Part shown: positions 5,221 to 35,626 of the stretch, one piece after another
Position numbering within the stretch: position 1 is the first letter of the stretch
Layout: every line of letters begins with the position of its first letter
DNA from: an uncultured Acetatifactor sp.
GTDB taxonomy: Bacteria; Bacillota; Clostridia; Lachnospirales; Lachnospiraceae
DNA: 36,854 nt
Direction: 5' to 3'
Assembly (NCBI GenBank): GCA_947581905.1
Contig: CANPWC010000003.1
Location: 1 to 36,854 of the forward strand
The notes under the pieces: generated by a model
The model's database searches: none
What the model was told of the DNA's origin: nothing
The model's input: the letters and a program-made list of their open reading frames with translations, nothing else
Program-made: the position numbers and the translations under genes

Positions 5221-5855
5221 CCGGACCCATTAAAATCCCCTTTGCCATTCTTCCTCTTTTTGCCATAACGGACACGCTCCGCCAGACAGGACGCGCTCCC
5301 TAAGAGGAAACCTGCAATCAAGCCGCCTATATGGGCGGGATTATCTATATTGCTTCCGGTAAAGCCGCTATAAAGGGACAAGGCGATCATAAGCAACACA
5401 CGGGCAGGCGTAACATTCGGAAGATGCCTGCGTGAAAAAAGCACCAACCCCAAAAGGACCCCCACCAGGCCGAACACGGCGCCGCTCGCCCCAATGGAAG
5501 ACGACCAGTCCGCCGACAGGGTCTTCACGAAAAGGGAAAGCAAGTTGCCGCAGATGCCGGACAAAAAGTAAAACACGGTATACCGGACATGCCCAACCTC
5601 CTTTTCGATCATGGTGCCAAGGAAAAAGAGGATGATCACGTTATTAAACAAATGGTATTGGTCGCTATGCAGGAACATGGCCCAGATAATGCGGCCGTAC
5701 TCATGGTTCAACAGGACGGCAGGCACATTTTGCGCCCCAAGGAGGTACAGTCTTTCCCCGGTAAAACGGCAAACAAGGAAAACGACGATATTGATTATGG
5801 ACAACGTGGCGCTTACCAAAGGCTGGCTCTTTACTTGGTCTTTCGTGATACTCAT
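5205..5855 (-). CDS. Rhomboid-family intramembrane serine protease
   Basis: A 216-residue polytopic membrane protein with the rhomboid signature. GASGAVFG (residues 122-129) carries the nucleophile Ser124, and the partner His175 lies in the last core helix (HIGGLIAGFLLG). The HxxxN-type segment HLFNN in the second helix stabilises the transition state in this family. About six hydrophobic segments are seen, then a basic, Gly/Ser-rich cytoplasmic tail. It would cleave transmembrane helices of unknown substrates. The ATG at 5855 follows AAAGGTG with suitable spacing; a GTG four codons upstream is less likely. It appears to be a single-gene unit between the Tad operon and the HIT operon. Confidence 0.9.
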   Translation of the reverse strand: MSITKDQVKSQPLVSATLSIINIVVFLVCRFTGERLYLLGAQNVPAVLLNHEYGRIIWAMFLHSDQYHLFNNVIILFFLGTMIEKEVGHVRYTVFYFLSGICGNLLSLFVKTLSADWSSSIGASGAVFGLVGVLLGLVLFSRRHLPNVTPARVLLMIALSLYSGFTGSNIDNPAHIGGLIAGFLLGSASCLAERVRYGKKRKNGKGDFNGSGSDKM

Positions 5856-5923
5856 ATTTCTTTTCACCTTTCGCCGGATGCTTGTTCCGGCAATCGTTCG
5901 ATGGCTTAACCACCTACCTTAAA

Positions 5924-5953
5924 ACTGTACCACTATCTTGCCCGTTTCGTCAA
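5924..5953 (-). promoter_or_regulatory. Candidate promoter for the rhomboid gene
   Basis: On the minus strand TTGACG (5953-5948) and TACAGT (5929-5924) are 18 bases apart, about 70 bases before the rhomboid start. The match is moderate. The rest of the 205-base gap to the FHA gene shows nothing I can name. Confidence 0.35.
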
Positions 5954-6060
5954 TCCTTACTGAACCCACTCATTTTATGAAAATATGGAACTTGCCCATT
6001 TTAAGAAAATGTAACCATGAAAACCGCCCATCCGGCATTTGTCCTACGAAAGCCGAACCA

Positions 6061-7341
6061 TTACCGAAAGGTCAGCATCACCTTGCCAAAACGGATTTCA
6101 TCCTCTTCCATCAGCTTCCGCTTCTCATACGGCTGGAGCCTTAATCCATTCTTGAACGTCCCATTGGTAGAATTCAAATCCTCCAGATAAAATTCATCCT
6201 CCTCCTTTGTGATCCTGGCATGCAGCCTGCTGACAGAACCGTCCGTCAAAACGCAGTCCGTTTCCCCCTTCTTCTTTCCGATCAGCATAGAATCCCGCTC
6301 CAAAGCACATACAGACCTCCCATCCTGGTCATAAAGCCGATATACATGCTGCTCCTTGGCTTTCTCTTCAAAATACATGGTCCGTCCCAGCTCCTCTTCT
6401 TCCTCTTCCGATTCCTCTGCCGCCATGGGTGAATACGATGAATACAGGGAATCTTCCGCCACGGCATAACCAGCGGTCAACTCTCTGTTCCGGTTTTCCA
6501 GCGCCTCTCGTTCTTCTTTCAATTTTTTCTTCCTGTTCTCAAAGAAATACCGAATGCCTTTCTTAGACTTCTCCTCTGAAAGCAGACCTGGATCCATGTC
6601 CGGTCCCTCCTCGCTTCCAGACTCTTTGTCTCCCAAAGCTTCTGCCATAACAGGGCCTTGTTTCCGTTCCGCGCTCCCTTTGCGGATCCGCGCTTCCTCC
6701 CTGCTTTCTCCGGCGGCGCGGCTTCCTGCGGATCCAGCGGCACGGTTCCCCACAGATTGGGCAGGCTTTTCCCAAGCTTCCACATCCGGTGCCTCGTCGA
6801 GGCGCCGGGCATCTTCAAAAATCCGTTCCTGAAGATACGGCTTCCCTATTTCTTCAAATTGTTCGTGCATCAAATAAACGCATTCCACTAGCTTGTCGTC
6901 ATCATAATCGATCCGTTCCACCAGATAATCCAATAATGCCTGGAACCCGTCATCCCCCTCATAATATGGGATATACAAGAAAGAAAAATCCTTTTTCTCC
7001 AGGTCCTGGAAGATATGTTCCGGATGCCAGATCAGATTGCCATCGTCCAACAGGAAACGTTCCAGTTCCCTTTGCACCTGCTTCATGCTCCACAATAAAT
7101 CCCTGACCCATTCCCGCCCGACGCTTCTTCCGGAATACAGCTGCATGATGCTCTGCGTGGAAGAAATATCATAATAAAGGTAGGCTTGCCCATTGATGTA
7201 CCGCAGGCTGCAAGGCAACAGGCGTTTAATGCCTCCCCTTGTGACAATGCAATACTGATAGCGGTTTTCTTCCGGCTTCTTCTCCAAAAGGATTCTTTCG
7301 TAGTTACAATTCAAGTTCCTGACATATTGCGCTTGTAACAT
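6061..7341 (-). CDS. FHA-domain protein with DUF6382-type N-terminus
   Basis: A 426-residue cytoplasmic protein and the last gene of the Tad operon. The C-terminal 75 residues (352-426) are a forkhead-associated domain: an IGK entry strand, SRLHARI and NSTNGTFKNG are the conserved phosphothreonine-binding loops. Residues 1 to about 175 resemble the DUF6382 family found N-terminal to FHA domains in Clostridia. The middle (about 180-345) is charged, low-complexity and probably disordered, with possible phosphorylation sites. FHA domains bind phosphothreonine peptides, so it may connect pilus assembly to a Ser/Thr kinase encoded elsewhere. The ATG follows GGAGGGG, 31 bases after the upstream TadE-like gene. 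Confidence 0.85.
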   Translation of the reverse strand: MLQAQYVRNLNCNYERILLEKKPEENRYQYCIVTRGGIKRLLPCSLRYINGQAYLYYDISSTQSIMQLYSGRSVGREWVRDLLWSMKQVQRELERFLLDDGNLIWHPEHIFQDLEKKDFSFLYIPYYEGDDGFQALLDYLVERIDYDDDKLVECVYLMHEQFEEIGKPYLQERIFEDARRLDEAPDVEAWEKPAQSVGNRAAGSAGSRAAGESREEARIRKGSAERKQGPVMAEALGDKESGSEEGPDMDPGLLSEEKSKKGIRYFFENRKKKLKEEREALENRNRELTAGYAVAEDSLYSSYSPMAAEESEEEEEELGRTMYFEEKAKEQHVYRLYDQDGRSVCALERDSMLIGKKKGETDCVLTDGSVSRLHARITKEEDEFYLEDLNSTNGTFKNGLRLQPYEKRKLMEEDEIRFGKVMLTFR

Positions 7342-30734: not shown

Positions 30735-30765
30735 TTGACCTTCCACCTGGTGGAAGGGGTATGAT
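30735..30765 (+). promoter_or_regulatory. MerR-type promoter with 19-bp spacer and perfect dyad
   Basis: TTGACC (30735-30740) and TATGAT (30760-30765) are separated by 19 bases instead of 17, the known hallmark of MerR-activated promoters. The spacer region carries a perfect inverted repeat, CCTTCCACC-T-GGTGGAAGG (30739-30757, nine bases each arm). A MerR dimer bound here would untwist the spacer. The promoter directly precedes the merR gene, so autoregulation is expected. Confidence 0.9.
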
Positions 30766-30808
30766 AAAGAGGAAACCAAGGCATGAAATGAAAAGAGGCG
30801 AGGCTGCC

Positions 30809-31459
30809 ATGAAGATCAATGAAGTGGAAGCCCTGGTAGGCATCACGAAGAAAAACATTCGTTTCTATGAGGGAAAAGGCTTGCTCTCCCCTTTGCGCAA
30901 CGGAGAAAACGGATACCGGGACTACGGCAGGGAAGAAGTCGCCATCCTGCAGCGGATCAAGCTGCTTCGGAAGCTGGGCGTCCCCATCGAAGAGATCCGC
31001 AGGATGCAGACGGGGGCCCAGACCGTGGGAGACGGCATGAAACGGCACCTGATCACCTTGGAGCGTGAACGACAGAACTTGGAACAGGCCATCCGCTTCT
31101 GCACCCTTTTGCAGGAAAAGGACATCCCTTTATCCGAATTGGACGCGGGGCAGGTGCTGGAAGAGATGGACCGCCTGGAACAGGCCGGCACCACGTTCCA
31201 AAACAAGCAGGTCAGAGACATCCGCATCCGCTATGTAGCGCCCGTCCTGATCACGGCCGCGACCGTCTTACTTATGACGTGCCTCCTTGTGCTGTTCGCC
31301 CATACTTACTATATGGATCAAGGGAAAGTCATTCCCTTTGCCATCGTATGGATCATATTCCTTGCCCCGGTCTTAGTGTCCGGAGGCGTAGTATCCGCCC
31401 TTTACCAACGCATCCGTGAAATCATGAAAGGAGAAGCTGATGATGCAAAACAATACTAA
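30809..31459 (+). CDS. MerR-family regulator with C-terminal membrane domain
   Basis: A 216-residue protein. Residues 1-70 are a MerR winged HTH (VEALVGITKKNIRFYEGKGL, YRDYGREEVAILQRI). A dimerising coiled coil follows (about 80-140). Residues 143-216 contain two transmembrane helices and end LYQRIREIMKGEADDAKQY, in place of a soluble effector pocket. No Cys pair for metals is seen. It should bind the dyad upstream of its own gene from the membrane. The ATG at 30809 is preceded by GAGGCGAGG; the frame is open to 30761, but that lies inside the -10 box. Its 3' end overlaps the next gene by 20 bases. Confidence 0.87.
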   Translation: MKINEVEALVGITKKNIRFYEGKGLLSPLRNGENGYRDYGREEVAILQRIKLLRKLGVPIEEIRRMQTGAQTVGDGMKRHLITLERERQNLEQAIRFCTLLQEKDIPLSELDAGQVLEEMDRLEQAGTTFQNKQVRDIRIRYVAPVLITAATVLLMTCLLVLFAHTYYMDQGKVIPFAIVWIIFLAPVLVSGGVVSALYQRIREIMKGEADDAKQY

Positions 31460-31718
31460 CCGTCCGAATCGGAAAAAAGTCGCCCCAATCGTCATCACTA
31501 TCGTGGTGGTTCTTTATATCCTGTCGCTCCTGGCCATTTTAACCAAGATCATATCGTTTTCCAGGCAACAGCTCGCGGAGGATGCAGGACCTCTCCTCCC
31601 GATCTTAGGGATTTACGCCATCTTAGGCATCGTGGTGATCTTCGGCGTCATTAAGGCTATGCTGCAGCGTATGAAAGAAATTGATCGGGGAGAGGAAGAA
31701 GAAGCATCCAAATATTAA
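31440..31718 (+). CDS. Small two-helix membrane protein, paralogue of the MerR tail
   Basis: A 92-residue protein with two transmembrane helices (about 14-38 and 48-70). From residue 14 it aligns end-to-end with residues 143-216 of the preceding regulator: VAPIVIT against VAPVLIT, and LQRMKEIDRGEEEEASKY against YQRIREIMKGEADDAKQY. The two are therefore homologous and probably arose by tandem duplication. It may pair with the regulator in the membrane and hold or release it. AAAGGAG lies six bases before the first of two consecutive ATGs. It overlaps the regulator gene by 20 bases. No known family name comes to mind. Confidence 0.75.
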   Translation: MMQNNTNRPNRKKVAPIVITIVVVLYILSLLAILTKIISFSRQQLAEDAGPLLPILGIYAILGIVVIFGVIKAMLQRMKEIDRGEEEEASKY

Positions 31719-31743
31719 ACCAGAGGAAGGAGAGGATTTTAAA

Positions 31744-32055
31744 ATGTTGTTGTTCAATATCGACTATGTACCGGGTAAAGAATTGGAAGCATTAGGCCTG
31801 GTGAAAGGGACCGTGGTACAGTCCAAGAATTTCGGGAAAGATTTCATGGCAGGCATGAAGACCCTTGTCGGCGGAGAGATCGCCAGCTACACCGAAATGC
31901 TGGTGGAAGCCCGCCAAATTGCCACCAAGAGGATGGTGGACGAGGCTACCGCCCTGGGGGCGGACGCCGTGGTCAACGTACGGTTCGGCTCCTCCAGCGT
32001 CATGCAGGGCGCCGCGGAAGTATTGGCTTATGGGACTGCCGTGCGGTTCAAATAA
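31744..32055 (+). CDS. YbjQ (UPF0145) family protein
   Basis: A 103-residue protein matching YbjQ: LGLVKGTVVQSKNFGKDF, then a helix with EARQIATKRMVDEATALGADAVVNVRF and a final YGTAV. Such proteins form pentamers; they are often labelled heavy-metal-binding, but their role is not established. The ATG at 31744 follows AAGGAGAGG and starts the conserved domain; the open frame begins at 31681 inside the preceding gene. It is the third gene of the MerR-controlled operon, so it is a candidate effector or target of that system. Confidence 0.82.
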   Translation: MLLFNIDYVPGKELEALGLVKGTVVQSKNFGKDFMAGMKTLVGGEIASYTEMLVEARQIATKRMVDEATALGADAVVNVRFGSSSVMQGAAEVLAYGTAVRFK

Positions 32056-32131: not shown

Positions 32132-32824
32132 TTAGACCTTAAACCGGTACCCTACGCCCCATATGGTCTCAATGTACTGGGGCTTTGCCGTATCCGCCTC
32201 AATCTTCTCACGGATCTTCTTGATATGCACTGTCACGGTGGCTATATCGCCGATGGAATCCATGTCCCAGATTTCCCGGAACAATTCCTCCTTCGTGAAG
32301 ACGTGGTTGGGATTCTCCGCCAGGAAAGTCAACAGATCGAACTCCTTGGTCGTGAACGTCTTCTCAACGCCCTCCACATAGACCCGGCGCGCCGTCTTGT
32401 CGATGCGGATGCCGCGGATCTCCACGATGTCGTTCTGAGGCTTGGCATTAATCCCTACCAGCCTTTCATACCTGGCCATGTGCGCTTTCACGCGGGCAAC
32501 CAGTTCGCTGGGGCTGAAAGGCTTCGTCATATAATCATCCGCGCCCAGGCCAAGCCCCCTGATCTTGTCAATATCATCTTTCTTAGCGGACACCATTAAG
32601 ATGGGGATGTTTTTCTGCTCCCGGATCCGCTTGCACACCTCGAACCCATCCATGCCGGGGAGCATCAGGTCCAGGATGATCAAGTCAAACTGCCCCTCCA
32701 GGGCCGCTTTGAGCCCCTCGTCGCCGGAATTACGGATCTCCACCTGGAAATCGCTCAGCTCCAGGTAATCCCTCTCCAGATCGGCAATGGCCACCTCGTC
32801 TTCAATAATCAAAATCCTGCTCAT
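32132..32824 (-). CDS. OmpR/PhoB-family response regulator
   Basis: A 230-residue regulator. The receiver domain has the phospho-acceptor Asp52 (LILDLMLPG), Ser79 and Lys101 (MTKPFSP). A winged-helix DNA-binding domain covers about 135-228 (TTKEFDLLTFLAENP, DIATVTVHIKKIREKIE, WGVGYRF). The ATG at 32824 follows GGAGGAAG; the frame is open 50 codons further into non-homologous sequence. It lies 58 bases downstream of the sensor kinase gene, its probable partner. The stimulus is unknown. Confidence 0.92.
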   Translation of the reverse strand: MSRILIIEDEVAIADLERDYLELSDFQVEIRNSGDEGLKAALEGQFDLIILDLMLPGMDGFEVCKRIREQKNIPILMVSAKKDDIDKIRGLGLGADDYMTKPFSPSELVARVKAHMARYERLVGINAKPQNDIVEIRGIRIDKTARRVYVEGVEKTFTTKEFDLLTFLAENPNHVFTKEELFREIWDMDSIGDIATVTVHIKKIREKIEADTAKPQYIETIWGVGYRFKV

Positions 32825-32882
32825 ATCTTCCTCCATTTTCATGCCGCTTTCCGGCAAAATTCGCTCAACCGTCGTTCCTGGC

Positions 32883-34361
32883 CTAATCCCTTTGCAGCTC
32901 CCTGTATTTGCGCATGACGAAGTGCATGCAGGTCCCCTCGCCTTCCTTGCTGGTCGCCCAGATGTAGCCGCCATGGTCCTCTATGATCTTCTTCACGATG
33001 GACAAGCCGATCCCGCTGCCGCCCATGGCGGAATTGCGGGACGCGTCCGTCCGATAGAAACGCTCGAAGATCTTCGGCAAATCCTTCTGGGAAATGCCCC
33101 TGCCGTTGTCCTCGATCTCCACCCGGATGGAATCCACCTCGTCCAGGATTCGGATGTCGATCTCCCCGGGAGACTTGTCCATATATTTTACACTATTGCT
33201 GATGATGTTATTAATGACCTTCTTCATCTGTTCCGGGTCCGCGATGACGACCGTGTCCGGCGCGGCCAGGTTGGAATAATTCAACTTGATGTTCTTATTC
33301 TCCAGATCCAGCCCGACCTCTTCCACGCAGTCGCCAAAGTATTCCGCAACATTGATGCGATGGAAATTATACGGGATGCGGTTGTTCTCCACATTGGAAT
33401 AAACCGTCAGCTCGTTGATCAGCTTCTGCATGTCGTTCGCCTTGTTATAGATAGTCCTTAAATACTTGTCCATCTTCTCCGGCGTATCCGCCACGCCATC
33501 CATGATCCCTTCCACATAACCCTTGATGGCCGTGATCGGGGTCTTCAGGTCGTGGGAAATGTTGCTGATCAGTTCCCTGTTCTGCTGTTCATGCCGGTTG
33601 CCCTCTTCCATGGACTCCTTCAGGCGCAGCCTCATGTTCTCATAATTCCGGTAAAGGTCGCCGATCTCTCCCTTGGCGTCCGTCTGGAGCGAATAATCGT
33701 AATTGCCTTCCTTGATCTTCATCATCGCCACATTCAGCTCATTGATCGGGTTGAACACGCCCTTATGGATCCACTGTGTAAGCATGATGCTGGTAAAGAC
33801 CAGGATGGCCAGGATCGCGATGAACATGTCGATGAGCAGCTCCCTGGAAATCAAGGCGCTGACCACGGTAATGACGAAGATGCTGCCCTGGGAGCCGTCC
33901 GAGAACACGAAGTCCACCTGCCGGATGAACTTCCTCATATTATCACTGTAATAACTGAAATTCTCCGAGACCGCCCCATCGCCGTATTCCGGCAGCTTGT
34001 CAAATATCTCTACGGCCGCCTCCTGGTTGCCCGCGTAATAAATCTCATGATCCTTACGGACCAAGATATAAGTGGAATCCTGGGAAACCTCCCTGTTCAA
34101 CTCCTGGAGGTAGGACTTGTCTTCAAACTTGGAGACGTCCCGGGCAGCCTGGTCCAGCAATAGCTCATAGGCCTCGTTCGTATCCTCGATAAAGGACTGC
34201 ATGGAATCAGACATCCTCGAATAATCCAAACCCTCCATCCGAAAGCCCCGCTGGCTGTTCACCAGGTACATGCCGATCAAGATGAACGCCATGGCGGTCA
34301 AAACGAGCGGCAGCAATATGATCGTAGCGAAAGTGACTCTTAAACGCGTCTTAAACTTCAT
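32883..34361 (-). CDS. Membrane sensor histidine kinase
   Basis: A 492-residue class I kinase. Transmembrane helices lie at about 10-34 and 178-197, enclosing an extracytoplasmic sensor of about 140 residues. A HAMP domain follows (about 199-255), then the dimerisation domain with His270 in NISHDLKTPITAIKG. The ATPase domain has NNIISNSVKY (about 384-393), DNGRGI (418) and GGSGIGLSIVKKI (447). The ATG at 34361 follows AAAGGATG; a TTG nine codons upstream is less likely. It precedes its response regulator, and its promoter shares an intergenic region with perR. Confidence 0.92.
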   Translation of the reverse strand: MKFKTRLRVTFATIILLPLVLTAMAFILIGMYLVNSQRGFRMEGLDYSRMSDSMQSFIEDTNEAYELLLDQAARDVSKFEDKSYLQELNREVSQDSTYILVRKDHEIYYAGNQEAAVEIFDKLPEYGDGAVSENFSYYSDNMRKFIRQVDFVFSDGSQGSIFVITVVSALISRELLIDMFIAILAILVFTSIMLTQWIHKGVFNPINELNVAMMKIKEGNYDYSLQTDAKGEIGDLYRNYENMRLRLKESMEEGNRHEQQNRELISNISHDLKTPITAIKGYVEGIMDGVADTPEKMDKYLRTIYNKANDMQKLINELTVYSNVENNRIPYNFHRINVAEYFGDCVEEVGLDLENKNIKLNYSNLAAPDTVVIADPEQMKKVINNIISNSVKYMDKSPGEIDIRILDEVDSIRVEIEDNGRGISQKDLPKIFERFYRTDASRNSAMGGSGIGLSIVKKIIEDHGGYIWATSKEGEGTCMHFVMRKYRELQRD

Positions 34362-34425
34362 AGGGAATCCGACATCCTTTTGTGGCAAAATGCAAACGGT
34401 TTCGGTTAAGCCTCCACCTCATAAC

Positions 34426-34434
34426 AGTATAACA
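34426..34434 (-). promoter_or_regulatory. Extended -10 promoter of the sensor kinase gene
   Basis: On the minus strand TGTTATACT (34434-34426) is an extended -10 box. No strong -35 box is found 17 bases upstream. It lies about 65 bases before the kinase start. Confidence 0.45.
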
Positions 34435-34505
34435 CATTTTTCCCATGGAAAGTGTAAAATGAAAGAAACTTTCTCATAAAAAAAATATAAAATAGGACTT
34501 TGGTC

Positions 34506-34533
34506 TTGACTTCATAGAAAAAACCGATATAAT
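34506..34533 (+). promoter_or_regulatory. Sigma-A promoter of perR
   Basis: TTGACT (34506-34511) and TATAAT (34528-34533) are 16 bases apart. An AT-rich, partly symmetrical stretch directly after the -10 box (ATTAAAATAGTAATGATT) could be an autoregulatory PerR/Fur site, but it is an imperfect match. Confidence 0.7.
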
Positions 34534-34576
34534 TAAAATAGTAATGATTCCTGATTTTGAAAGAGAGGACAGCCGG

Positions 34577-34996
34577 ATGGCATTGAAGCACAGCAGGCAG
34601 AGGGAAATGATCAAGGAATTTCTGATGACCCGGACGGATCATCCCACTGCCGACATCGTATATATGAATGTGCGCAAGCAGCACCCGAACATCAGCTTAG
34701 GGACCGTGTACCGCAACCTGACGCTTCTTGCGGACTTAGGCGAAATCAAGCGGATCCGGGTCGGCGACGGGGTAGACCATTTCGACGCCGACACTTCGCC
34801 GCACTACCACTTCGTCTGTACGGAATGCGGGCATGTGACGGACCTGCAGATGAAGAACCTGGACGAGCTCGTCACCCTGGCGGGGGCGAACTTCGACGGG
34901 CAGATCGCCGGGCATGTCACGTATTTCTACGGGATCTGCGGCGACTGCGGGAAAGCAGGGCGGGACGCTTCCCCTGCAGGAGGCGCTTACCACTGA
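34577..34996 (+). CDS. PerR-like peroxide-sensing Fur-family repressor
   Basis: A 139-residue Fur-family regulator. An N-terminal winged helix (SLGTVYRNLTLL) is followed by the metal-binding dimer domain. The spacing D70-x5-H76-x-H78 and D89 reproduces the regulatory metal site of Bacillus PerR (D85, H91, H93, D104), with H36 as the fifth ligand; Fur normally has Glu at the last place. Two CxxC pairs (C81/C84 and CGDC) form the structural zinc site. It is therefore probably PerR: Fe-bound repressor, released on His oxidation by peroxide. The rubrerythrin gene 90 bases downstream supports this. The ATG at 34577 follows AGAGGA. Confidence 0.85.
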   Translation: MALKHSRQREMIKEFLMTRTDHPTADIVYMNVRKQHPNISLGTVYRNLTLLADLGEIKRIRVGDGVDHFDADTSPHYHFVCTECGHVTDLQMKNLDELVTLAGANFDGQIAGHVTYFYGICGDCGKAGRDASPAGGAYH

Positions 34997-34997
34997 T

Positions 34998-35030
34998 TGT
35001 TGGATTCTTCGGAATCATAACATATTTTTA
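34998..35030 (+). terminator. UUCG hairpin between perR and rubrerythrin (attenuator-like)
   Basis: GATTC-TTCG-GAATC (35003-35016) forms a tetraloop hairpin, extended by TGTT/AACA pairs (34998-35001 with 35019-35022), followed by TATTTTTA. It begins right after the perR stop. It may terminate part of the transcripts. A second, perfect 6-bp hairpin (TCAGGC-ATTG-GCCTGA) follows at 35041-35056. Confidence 0.5.
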
Positions 35031-35086
35031 AAATCATCCATCAGGCATTGGCCTGAAAATCCATCCAAGAAAAGGAGAAGAAGAAC

Positions 35087-35626
35087 ATGAAATTTGTATG
35101 TCAGGTATGTGGTTACGTACATGAAGGGGACACCCCTCCCGAGTCTTGCCCTGTATGCAAGGCTTCCGCGGACAAGTTCACCGCGCAGGCAGAGGAAAAA
35201 GTATGGGCGGCTGAGCACGTGGTAGGCGTGGCTTCCGGCGTCAGGGAAGACATCCTGAACGACCTTCGCGCGAATTTCCAGGGCGAGTGCACCGAAGTCG
35301 GCATGTATCTTGCAATGGCCAGGGTCGCCCACAGGGAAGGCTATCCCGAAATCGGCTTATATTGGGAGAAAGCTGCTTATGAAGAGGCCGAGCATGCCGC
35401 GAAGTTCGCAGAGCTTCTGGGCGAAGTCGTAACCGATTCCACCAAGAAGAACCTGGAGATGAGGGTTGATGCCGAGAATGGCGCCACCGCCGGCAAGACC
35501 GACCTTGCAAAGAGGGCGAAAGAGCTGGGCCTGGATGCGATCCATGACACAGTGCATGAGATGGCCCGCGACGAGGCCCGCCACGGCAAGGCCTTTGAGG
35601 GGTTACTCAAGAGGTATTTCGGTTAA
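35087..35626 (+). CDS. Reverse rubrerythrin (rubredoxin domain N-terminal)
   Basis: A 179-residue non-haem iron peroxidase. The N-terminal rubredoxin domain has CxxC pairs CQVCGY (5-8) and CPVCKA (21-24). A ferritin-like diiron domain follows, with [28 protein letters not shown]-type and [11 protein letters not shown] helices carrying the Glu/His ligands. Domain order is the reverse of classical rubrerythrin, as in the clostridial NADH-dependent peroxidases that remove H2O2 and O2. It is probably repressed by the PerR-like protein upstream. The ATG follows AAGGAG with nine bases' spacing, and a strong terminator lies 38 bases after the stop. Confidence 0.92.

Follow-up and report, generated by a model that had tools for sequence, protein, structure and literature searches.

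Why should a MerR-type regulator end in an apparent membrane hairpin, be followed by a small protein that resembles this hairpin, and share an operon with a YbjQ protein? This question is raised by a locus of an uncultured Acetatifactor sp. (assembly GCA_947581905.1, contig CANPWC010000003.1, positions 1-36,854, forward strand). The whole stretch of 36,854 nt that was analysed is referred to as the window; the genome it belongs to is 95% complete and distributed over 230 contigs. On the plus strand of the window, a promoter is followed by the gene of the membrane-tailed regulator (MerR-T), a gene encoding a stand-alone version of the tail domain (T, 92 residues), and ybjQ. The features are as follows.

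30735-30765, plus strand: MerR-type promoter, read from the sequence, with -35 TTGACC (30735-30740), a 19-bp spacer, and -10 TATGAT (30760-30765)
30739-30757, no strand: operator dyad inside the spacer, a perfect 9+1+9 inverted repeat (30739-30747/30749-30757)
30794-30803, plus strand: likely merR ribosome-binding site, assigned by eye
30809-31459, plus strand: membrane-tailed MerR regulator (MerR-T), 216 aa
30809-31009, plus strand: MerR winged-helix DNA-binding domain (PF13411, residues 1-67)
31100-31102, plus strand: codon of Cys98, near the end of the predicted helix 73-102
31205-31456, plus strand: T domain (tail) of MerR-T, two predicted helices joined by a short loop and followed by the C-terminal motif
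31409-31456, plus strand: C-terminal motif RxxEIxxGExxxAxxY of MerR-T, whose codons also contain the start of the next gene
31440-31718, plus strand: stand-alone T protein (92 aa; translation start 31440 or 31443), overlapping the MerR stop
31668-31715, plus strand: second copy of the C-terminal motif RxxEIxxGExxxAxxY, in stand-alone T
31725-31735, plus strand: likely ybjQ ribosome-binding site, assigned by eye
31744-32055, plus strand: YbjQ (PF01906), 103 aa, without Cys or His

Further downstream (32132-35626), a response regulator and a histidine kinase on the minus strand, a Fur-like regulator, and a rubrerythrin-like protein were recognized by eye.

The N-terminal part of MerR-T matches PF13411 with an E-value of 4.7e-19 (68.7 bits, cut-off 21.6), and its nearest solved relatives and folds are CueR and CadR. 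All 50 matches listed in the fold search are MerR proteins, and this search is uninformative on the tail. The AlphaFold model of MerR-T (mean pLDDT 87.4) contains a long helix at residues 73-102 and two tail helices at residues 133-169 and 177-207, connected by a loop of approximately 7 residues. A two-helix tail had been placed at residues 143-216 in the first-pass annotation, which was made from the sequence; the tail is indeed C-terminal and composed of two helices, but the hairpin begins near residue 133. A DNA-binding domain and two long predicted hydrophobic helices are thereby combined in a single chain, as in membrane-integrated one-component regulators of the CadC/ToxR type, and insertion of the T helices into the membrane is presumed from their hydrophobicity.

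The tail and the small protein match each other at 31% over 94 residues in a single BLASTP comparison (E 2e-10), and stand-alone T is likewise predicted as two helices, at residues 11-44 and 52-91 (AlphaFold, mean pLDDT 87.2). A profile that excluded MerR tails and was built from 55 stand-alone T proteins matches the tail of the window's regulator in its own genome with an E-value of 6.8e-16. In a shuffle control (E-values for 5000 sequences, threshold 1e-3, shuffling within hydropathy classes), the profile scored with 86 out of 86 MerR tails of the census described below, with 81 out of 86 when the last 18 residues were removed, and with 1 out of 430 shuffled tails. When the membrane part alone was shuffled and the last 18 residues were kept, 426 out of 430 still scored; thus most of the profile signal is carried by the C-terminal motif. 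Homology of the MerR tail and the 92-residue protein, as proposed initially, is confirmed by the BLASTP match, the profile, and the shuffle control, and the profile alignment of the two tails, whose absence had been reckoned with, is significant. Tail and stand-alone T represent one predicted two-helix domain, T. Pfam searches with T gave only weak matches, the most frequent being PF07332 (19 of the 55 members, best E 6e-6), and no match better than E 0.45 was obtained in the PDB. These matches were taken as shared membrane composition, and an assignment of T to the holins or another known membrane family was rejected. The T family is unnamed in the Pfam, PDB, and NCBIfam searches, the latter performed with the window's protein only.

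Relatives of the locus were collected by a contig scan, which yielded 76 loci, and by a scan of 99 relatives, which yielded more. This first census, with the window's own protein as query, comprises 86 distinct tailed regulators, window included. Duplicates (L018/L078, L029/L079, and L077/window) were counted once, matches below 130 bits (L076 and L092-L106) were left out, and the number of distinct regulators was reduced from 88 to 86 by dropping L086 and L089, which are MerR proteins with an ectodomain and without T. In all 86 distinct operons, ybjQ is located downstream on the same strand. Due to the use of the window's own protein in the first census, a second sample was drawn blind to YbjQ. 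Among 392 genomes of the order, sampled regardless of YbjQ, 23 further full-length regulators were found, all 23 with ybjQ directly downstream; a clear gap separates full-length matches (E < 1e-70) from other MerR proteins (E > 1e-42). Besides the window's own genome, 391 genomes of the class contributed only two regulators, both already counted. The total is 109 distinct operons, window included, and ybjQ follows the regulator in 109 out of 109, so that its assignment to the operon stands.

Stand-alone T is less constant. At least one copy is present in 65 of the 109 operons, two being the commonest number, and none is present in 44. In a quick, midpoint-rooted tree, operons with and without T fall largely into different clades: one of 41 rows, none with T, and one of 68 rows, 65 of them with T. 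The expectation that MerR tail and stand-alone T both co-occur with ybjQ is thus borne out in full for the MerR tail (109/109) and for stand-alone T in 65 operons only. Genomes in which the three genes are routinely separate and the dyad is lost, the pattern named beforehand as the opposite outcome, are not what was seen, as operator and ybjQ accompany the regulator in 109/109. In L021, L024, and L028, a gene on the opposite strand is situated between the first and the second T and separates T-ybjQ from merR; its product is a PilZ protein by Pfam in L024 and looks alike by eye in the other two.

The 19-bp repeat at 30739-30757 is the sole inverted repeat of at least 7 bp found in the 181 bases searched. 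A dyad operator within an over-long promoter spacer of 19 bp is a trait of the MerR family, whose activators switch such promoters by untwisting the spacer. Across loci, the operator core TTGACH-TTCC-N7-GGRRGG is conserved; the operator resembles that of copA. The promoter with its 19-bp spacer and the perfect 9+1+9 dyad described in the first-pass annotation are both there, but the 9+1+9 perfection is peculiar to this locus. In its strict form, the core occurs within 500 nt upstream of 77 of the 88 distinct regulators. With a relaxed count (at most one mismatch, or at most three mismatches together with a -10 element at the right spacing), an operator is located within 300 nt upstream in 99 of the 109 operons (97 with at most one mismatch), compared to 1/109 on the opposite strand; within 1500 nt, the same-strand count is 105/109 versus 1/109. 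At 7 of the 99 near sites, TA...T is absent from the expected -10 position.

In case of the ten operons without a near operator, the site lies farther upstream. For six of them the distance is 657-1231 nt, five sites being located before yhfC and one before a DUF3784 gene (L007); for the remaining four it is 1689-2002 nt, and the site precedes yhfC and an alpha/beta-hydrolase-like gene, the latter named by eye. The DUF3784 gene of L007 is located at 2466-2860, upstream of merR. An operator is therefore found upstream in 109 out of 109 operons, window included. A strict operator is located directly before yhfC in ten loci, and L020 carries an additional strict operator before ybjQ itself. The layout of an autoregulated operon, as had been claimed, is thus upheld by the operators and by the single strict site in the window's own genome. 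Because this genome contains exactly one strict site and one YbjQ, the regulon looks limited here to the window operon. Activation, as opposed to repression, of the operon is assumed from the spacer length alone.

Is the T domain a private sensor of the regulator, or does it belong to YbjQ? With the T profile, 99 relatives were searched together with 383 genomes from the order and 368 from the phylum. Among the matches listed, 35 distinct stand-alone T proteins occur outside the known operons, and all 35 were examined. Except for one at a contig end and one without ybjQ (L259), all are directly followed by ybjQ, 32 overlapping it by approximately 20 nt and one with ybjQ 12 nt downstream, i.e., 33 of 34 assessable genes from genomes where no tailed MerR was found. 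No MerR tail is among the T-profile matches listed in the genomes of these 35 proteins, a limited number of candidates being scored per genome, and a scan of eight T-ybjQ pairs without MerR gave no operator in their vicinity. Furthermore, the last T of the locus is joined in frame to YbjQ in 9 of the 86 first-census loci (L033, L035, L039, L051, L053, L055, L057, L065, and L067). All nine fusions keep an internal AAGGAGG and ATG, thus fused and free YbjQ are both possible products. Due to its position beside ybjQ where no tailed MerR was found and its fusion to YbjQ, the tail is regarded as a YbjQ-associated domain and not as a private sensor. On the simplest reading of these gene arrangements, T would be the membrane partner of YbjQ, and the regulator would consist of that partner and a MerR domain. 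T genes of only 53-56 aa occur in seven loci (L020, L036, L048, L051, L053, L055, and L057); in the two that were aligned (L020 and L055), one helix and the C-terminal motif are seemingly retained. In L197, the start of ybjQ is overlapped by the gene of an 81-aa protein that has two hydrophobic stretches and does not resemble the T profile; this protein is possibly a distant or analogous YbjQ partner.

The C-terminal motif coincides with the gene junctions. In the window, T overlaps the MerR stop, and in most operons without T it is ybjQ that overlaps; judging from the sequences, an overlapping junction of this kind to ybjQ is retained by most MerR-T genes without stand-alone T. Between T and ybjQ of the window itself, the overlap is lost and a 25-nt gap is present. 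Overall, 196 out of 226 junctions overlap, and at most junctions the motif codons include the following gene's ribosome-binding site and start codon, so that conservation of the motif is partly a DNA matter. The motif is present at 190 of the 196 overlapping junctions and at 28 of the 30 scored as non-overlapping; if six of the latter with start calls doubtful by eye are omitted, 22 of 24 remain, since both failures (L005 and L064) lie outside these six. A pure overlap effect was rejected as the sole cause of the motif on the basis of these 28 junctions. In the fusions, RFQEI is retained and the second half of the motif is gone. The second half might serve to bring YbjQ, and its loss upon fusion would then be expected.

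The YbjQ protein of the window is a full-domain member of PF01906 (residues 1-101, E 6e-37, 126.8 bits versus 23 bits) and the only YbjQ found in its genome. The family is widespread, with YbjQ in 76 of 149 genomes of the phylum sample and in 10 of 14 control genomes. A T match was found just upstream in none of the best 30 YbjQ loci of the phylum sample and in 4 of the 29 loci listed in the order sample, one of the four (L172) being weak. These lists contain the best-scoring matches, in which other YbjQ subgroups are favoured; the same phylum sample does include two T-ybjQ pairs (G860 and G922). On these counts, a role of T as a general partner of YbjQ was rejected, and T is considered to belong to a subgroup of YbjQ proteins. 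In the portion of PMC4092069 that deals with the YbjQ fold, pentamers are reported for relatives of known structure, UPF0145 proteins are listed in proteomic data excerpted from PMC6414554, PMC6262375, and PMC6459899, and in these passages YbjQ is called uncharacterised or putatively metal-binding.

Genes of intramembrane proteases are recurrent neighbours. By raw count, 41 of the 109 regulators (21 of the 65 operons with T and 20 of the 44 without) have a YhfC (PF10086) or Rce1-like (PF02517) gene at a distance of up to 1.7 kb on their own strand, a number that may be an undercount, as the flanking DNA is short at many loci. The families were named by Pfam on examples only, L015 being a weak match. 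In L011, an Rce1-like gene (5648-6262) is situated between the merR and T genes. The window operon has no intramembrane-protease neighbour.

MerR domains are also joined to other membrane segments. L086, L089, and L108 (1591-5546) encode MerR proteins of approximately 650 aa in which a single apparent membrane helix precedes a large further part, in L108 by two genes in tandem; they apparently represent a second kind of membrane-tethered MerR, and the operator core of the MerR-T operons is also present at L086 and L089. In L093, L094, L096, and L097, the MerR domain is fused to a multi-helix membrane domain that is RDD-like by eye.

The regulator of the window is 49-69% identical to the forms of its clade, mostly from Oscillospiraceae, and 40-48% identical to ten of the twelve full-length forms in the sample of its own genus. 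In the tree it is located on a long branch together with three Acetatifactor MAGs (support 86, not starred). The identity pattern and this grouping suggest that the regulator may have passed between families.

Considering these observations, we favour, tentatively and with a little less than even confidence, an operon that governs its own expression and supplies a membrane-bound complex of YbjQ; its MerR activator would be tethered to the membrane by a copy of YbjQ's membrane partner. Via its C-terminal cytoplasmic helix, T would keep YbjQ bound to the inner membrane face, and the MerR-borne T domain would join, or compete for, the same T-YbjQ assembly. If YbjQ became engaged elsewhere or the state of the membrane were altered, occupancy or conformation of the tail would change. 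The MerR dimer could then untwist the 19-bp spacer and turn the operon on, so that additional T and YbjQ would be produced, along with an intramembrane protease in many relatives, until the MerR tail was once more occupied by the T-YbjQ complex. In the most likely mechanism, the regulator would sense in which state the membrane complex of T and YbjQ is, and increase its amount. As to the signal, membrane or amphiphile stress is the likeliest guess, and the protease neighbours may hint at a membrane-active agent as trigger. It is tempting to speculate further, with perceptibly lower confidence, that the circuit is self-referential, i.e., that the MerR-fused T joins the very T-YbjQ complex it supplies and the regulator has the output complex as its ligand. 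If so, additional copies of T, T peptides with a single helix, and fusions of T with YbjQ would be tuning elements in competition for this assembly.

Other readings place the sensing step elsewhere. In the first-pass annotation, sensing was assumed to take place at the membrane, perhaps by hetero-pairing of the two tails, with YbjQ merely as output. A location of sensing at the membrane is retained here as a presumption. The homology of the tails and the presence of at least one stand-alone T in 65 of 109 operons, commonly two, are in good agreement with hetero-pairing, but the 44 operons without stand-alone T, confined in the tree to their own clade apart from three, keep tail, operator, and ybjQ, and stand-alone T accompanies ybjQ where no tailed MerR was found. 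Because of these 44 operons hetero-pairing cannot be essential, and as the sensing step it is not supported; we consider this explanation rather unlikely, even though pairing of the tails may tune the response. Alternatively, the tail itself could sense lipid packing or an amphiphile, e.g., bile acids or a membrane-active peptide, with YbjQ and T outside the signalling path. The predicted loop of only about 7 residues, tail positions conserved in MerR-T and absent from T (e.g., W165 and P176), and the protease genes near 41 of the regulators speak for such direct membrane sensing. It leaves unexplained why the tail is the very domain that accompanies or is fused to YbjQ elsewhere, and is judged unlikely, if worth keeping in mind. 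The same 41 protease neighbours, ten of the loci with a strict operator directly before yhfC, could also indicate regulated intramembrane proteolysis, in which a YhfC or Rce1-like protease frees the MerR part from the membrane. In 68 of 109 operons, including the window, no such neighbour is present in the available flanking DNA, and proteases under the same operator would be outputs rather than inputs, which renders this possibility improbable.

A CueR-like metal sensor, with the tail only as an anchor and YbjQ as a metal-binding output, would fit the DNA-binding domain and fold, which are nearest to CueR and CadR, and the naming of PF01906 as putative heavy-metal-binding. MerR-T reaches 50.8 bits against the curated CueR cut-off of 147.4, which is far below; the only conserved Cys position in the 86 regulators is Cys98 (86/86), no conserved pair of metal-binding cysteines is found in their C-terminal regions, and YbjQ lacks Cys in 83/86 and His in 48/86. 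Metal sensing was set aside on the Cys/His counts and the CueR cut-off, and its probability is regarded as very low. Finally, the tail might be an incidental fusion held by translational coupling, without any part in signalling, while the regulator merely sets its own level. This would explain why, at most junctions, the following gene has its start and ribosome-binding site inside the motif, but the motif is also found at 28 of 30 junctions scored as non-overlapping and the hairpin is recognizable without it in 81 of 86 regulators, thus we regard this as the least probable reading of all.

The preferred reading, a tethered MerR activator that monitors the YbjQ complex it provides, has partial counterparts among known systems. 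The closest working parallel are co-component systems, and the closest family is MerR, in its CueR/CadR branch without the metal site. According to the section available from PMC9214523, ToxR/ToxS and VtrA/VtrC combine a DNA-binding domain of the CadC-like type with a sensor heterodimer in the periplasm, and share with the operon described here a compact cassette in which a membrane-tethered factor is followed directly by a partly overlapping gene of a membrane partner, a putative one in the present operon. In contrast to them, the DNA-binding domain is of the MerR type, a loop of about 7 residues is all that is predicted to lie outside in place of a periplasmic sensor domain, and partner and regulator tail are the same domain. 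With the CueR/CadR-type activators MerR-T has the DNA-binding domain, the fold, and the 19-bp spacer in common, but it lacks their conserved Cys pair, and a hydrophobic hairpin replaces the C-terminal metal loop. The window's YbjQ is a full-length member of the YbjQ/UPF0145 family (PF01906; PDB 1y2i, 1vr4, and 2gtc, five chains each), and differs from other members by its tie to a putative membrane partner and a dedicated regulator and by the lack of conserved Cys/His. MerR proteins of the same order with RDD-like or ectodomain parts (by eye) also have a MerR domain followed by membrane segments, but no T domain and, in the stretches examined, no ybjQ. A MerR-YbjQ operon or a membrane-bound MerR was not described in the open-access literature searched, in line with the first-pass annotation, to which no described system with this layout was known.

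MerR thereby joins the DNA-binding domains that may act in membrane-tethered regulators. A subgroup of YbjQ gains a putative membrane partner family, a dedicated regulator, and a recurrent intramembrane-protease neighbour. The promoter with its one conserved operator is a direct reporter for what YbjQ responds to, and the regulator offers a handle on the function of the widespread YbjQ proteins.
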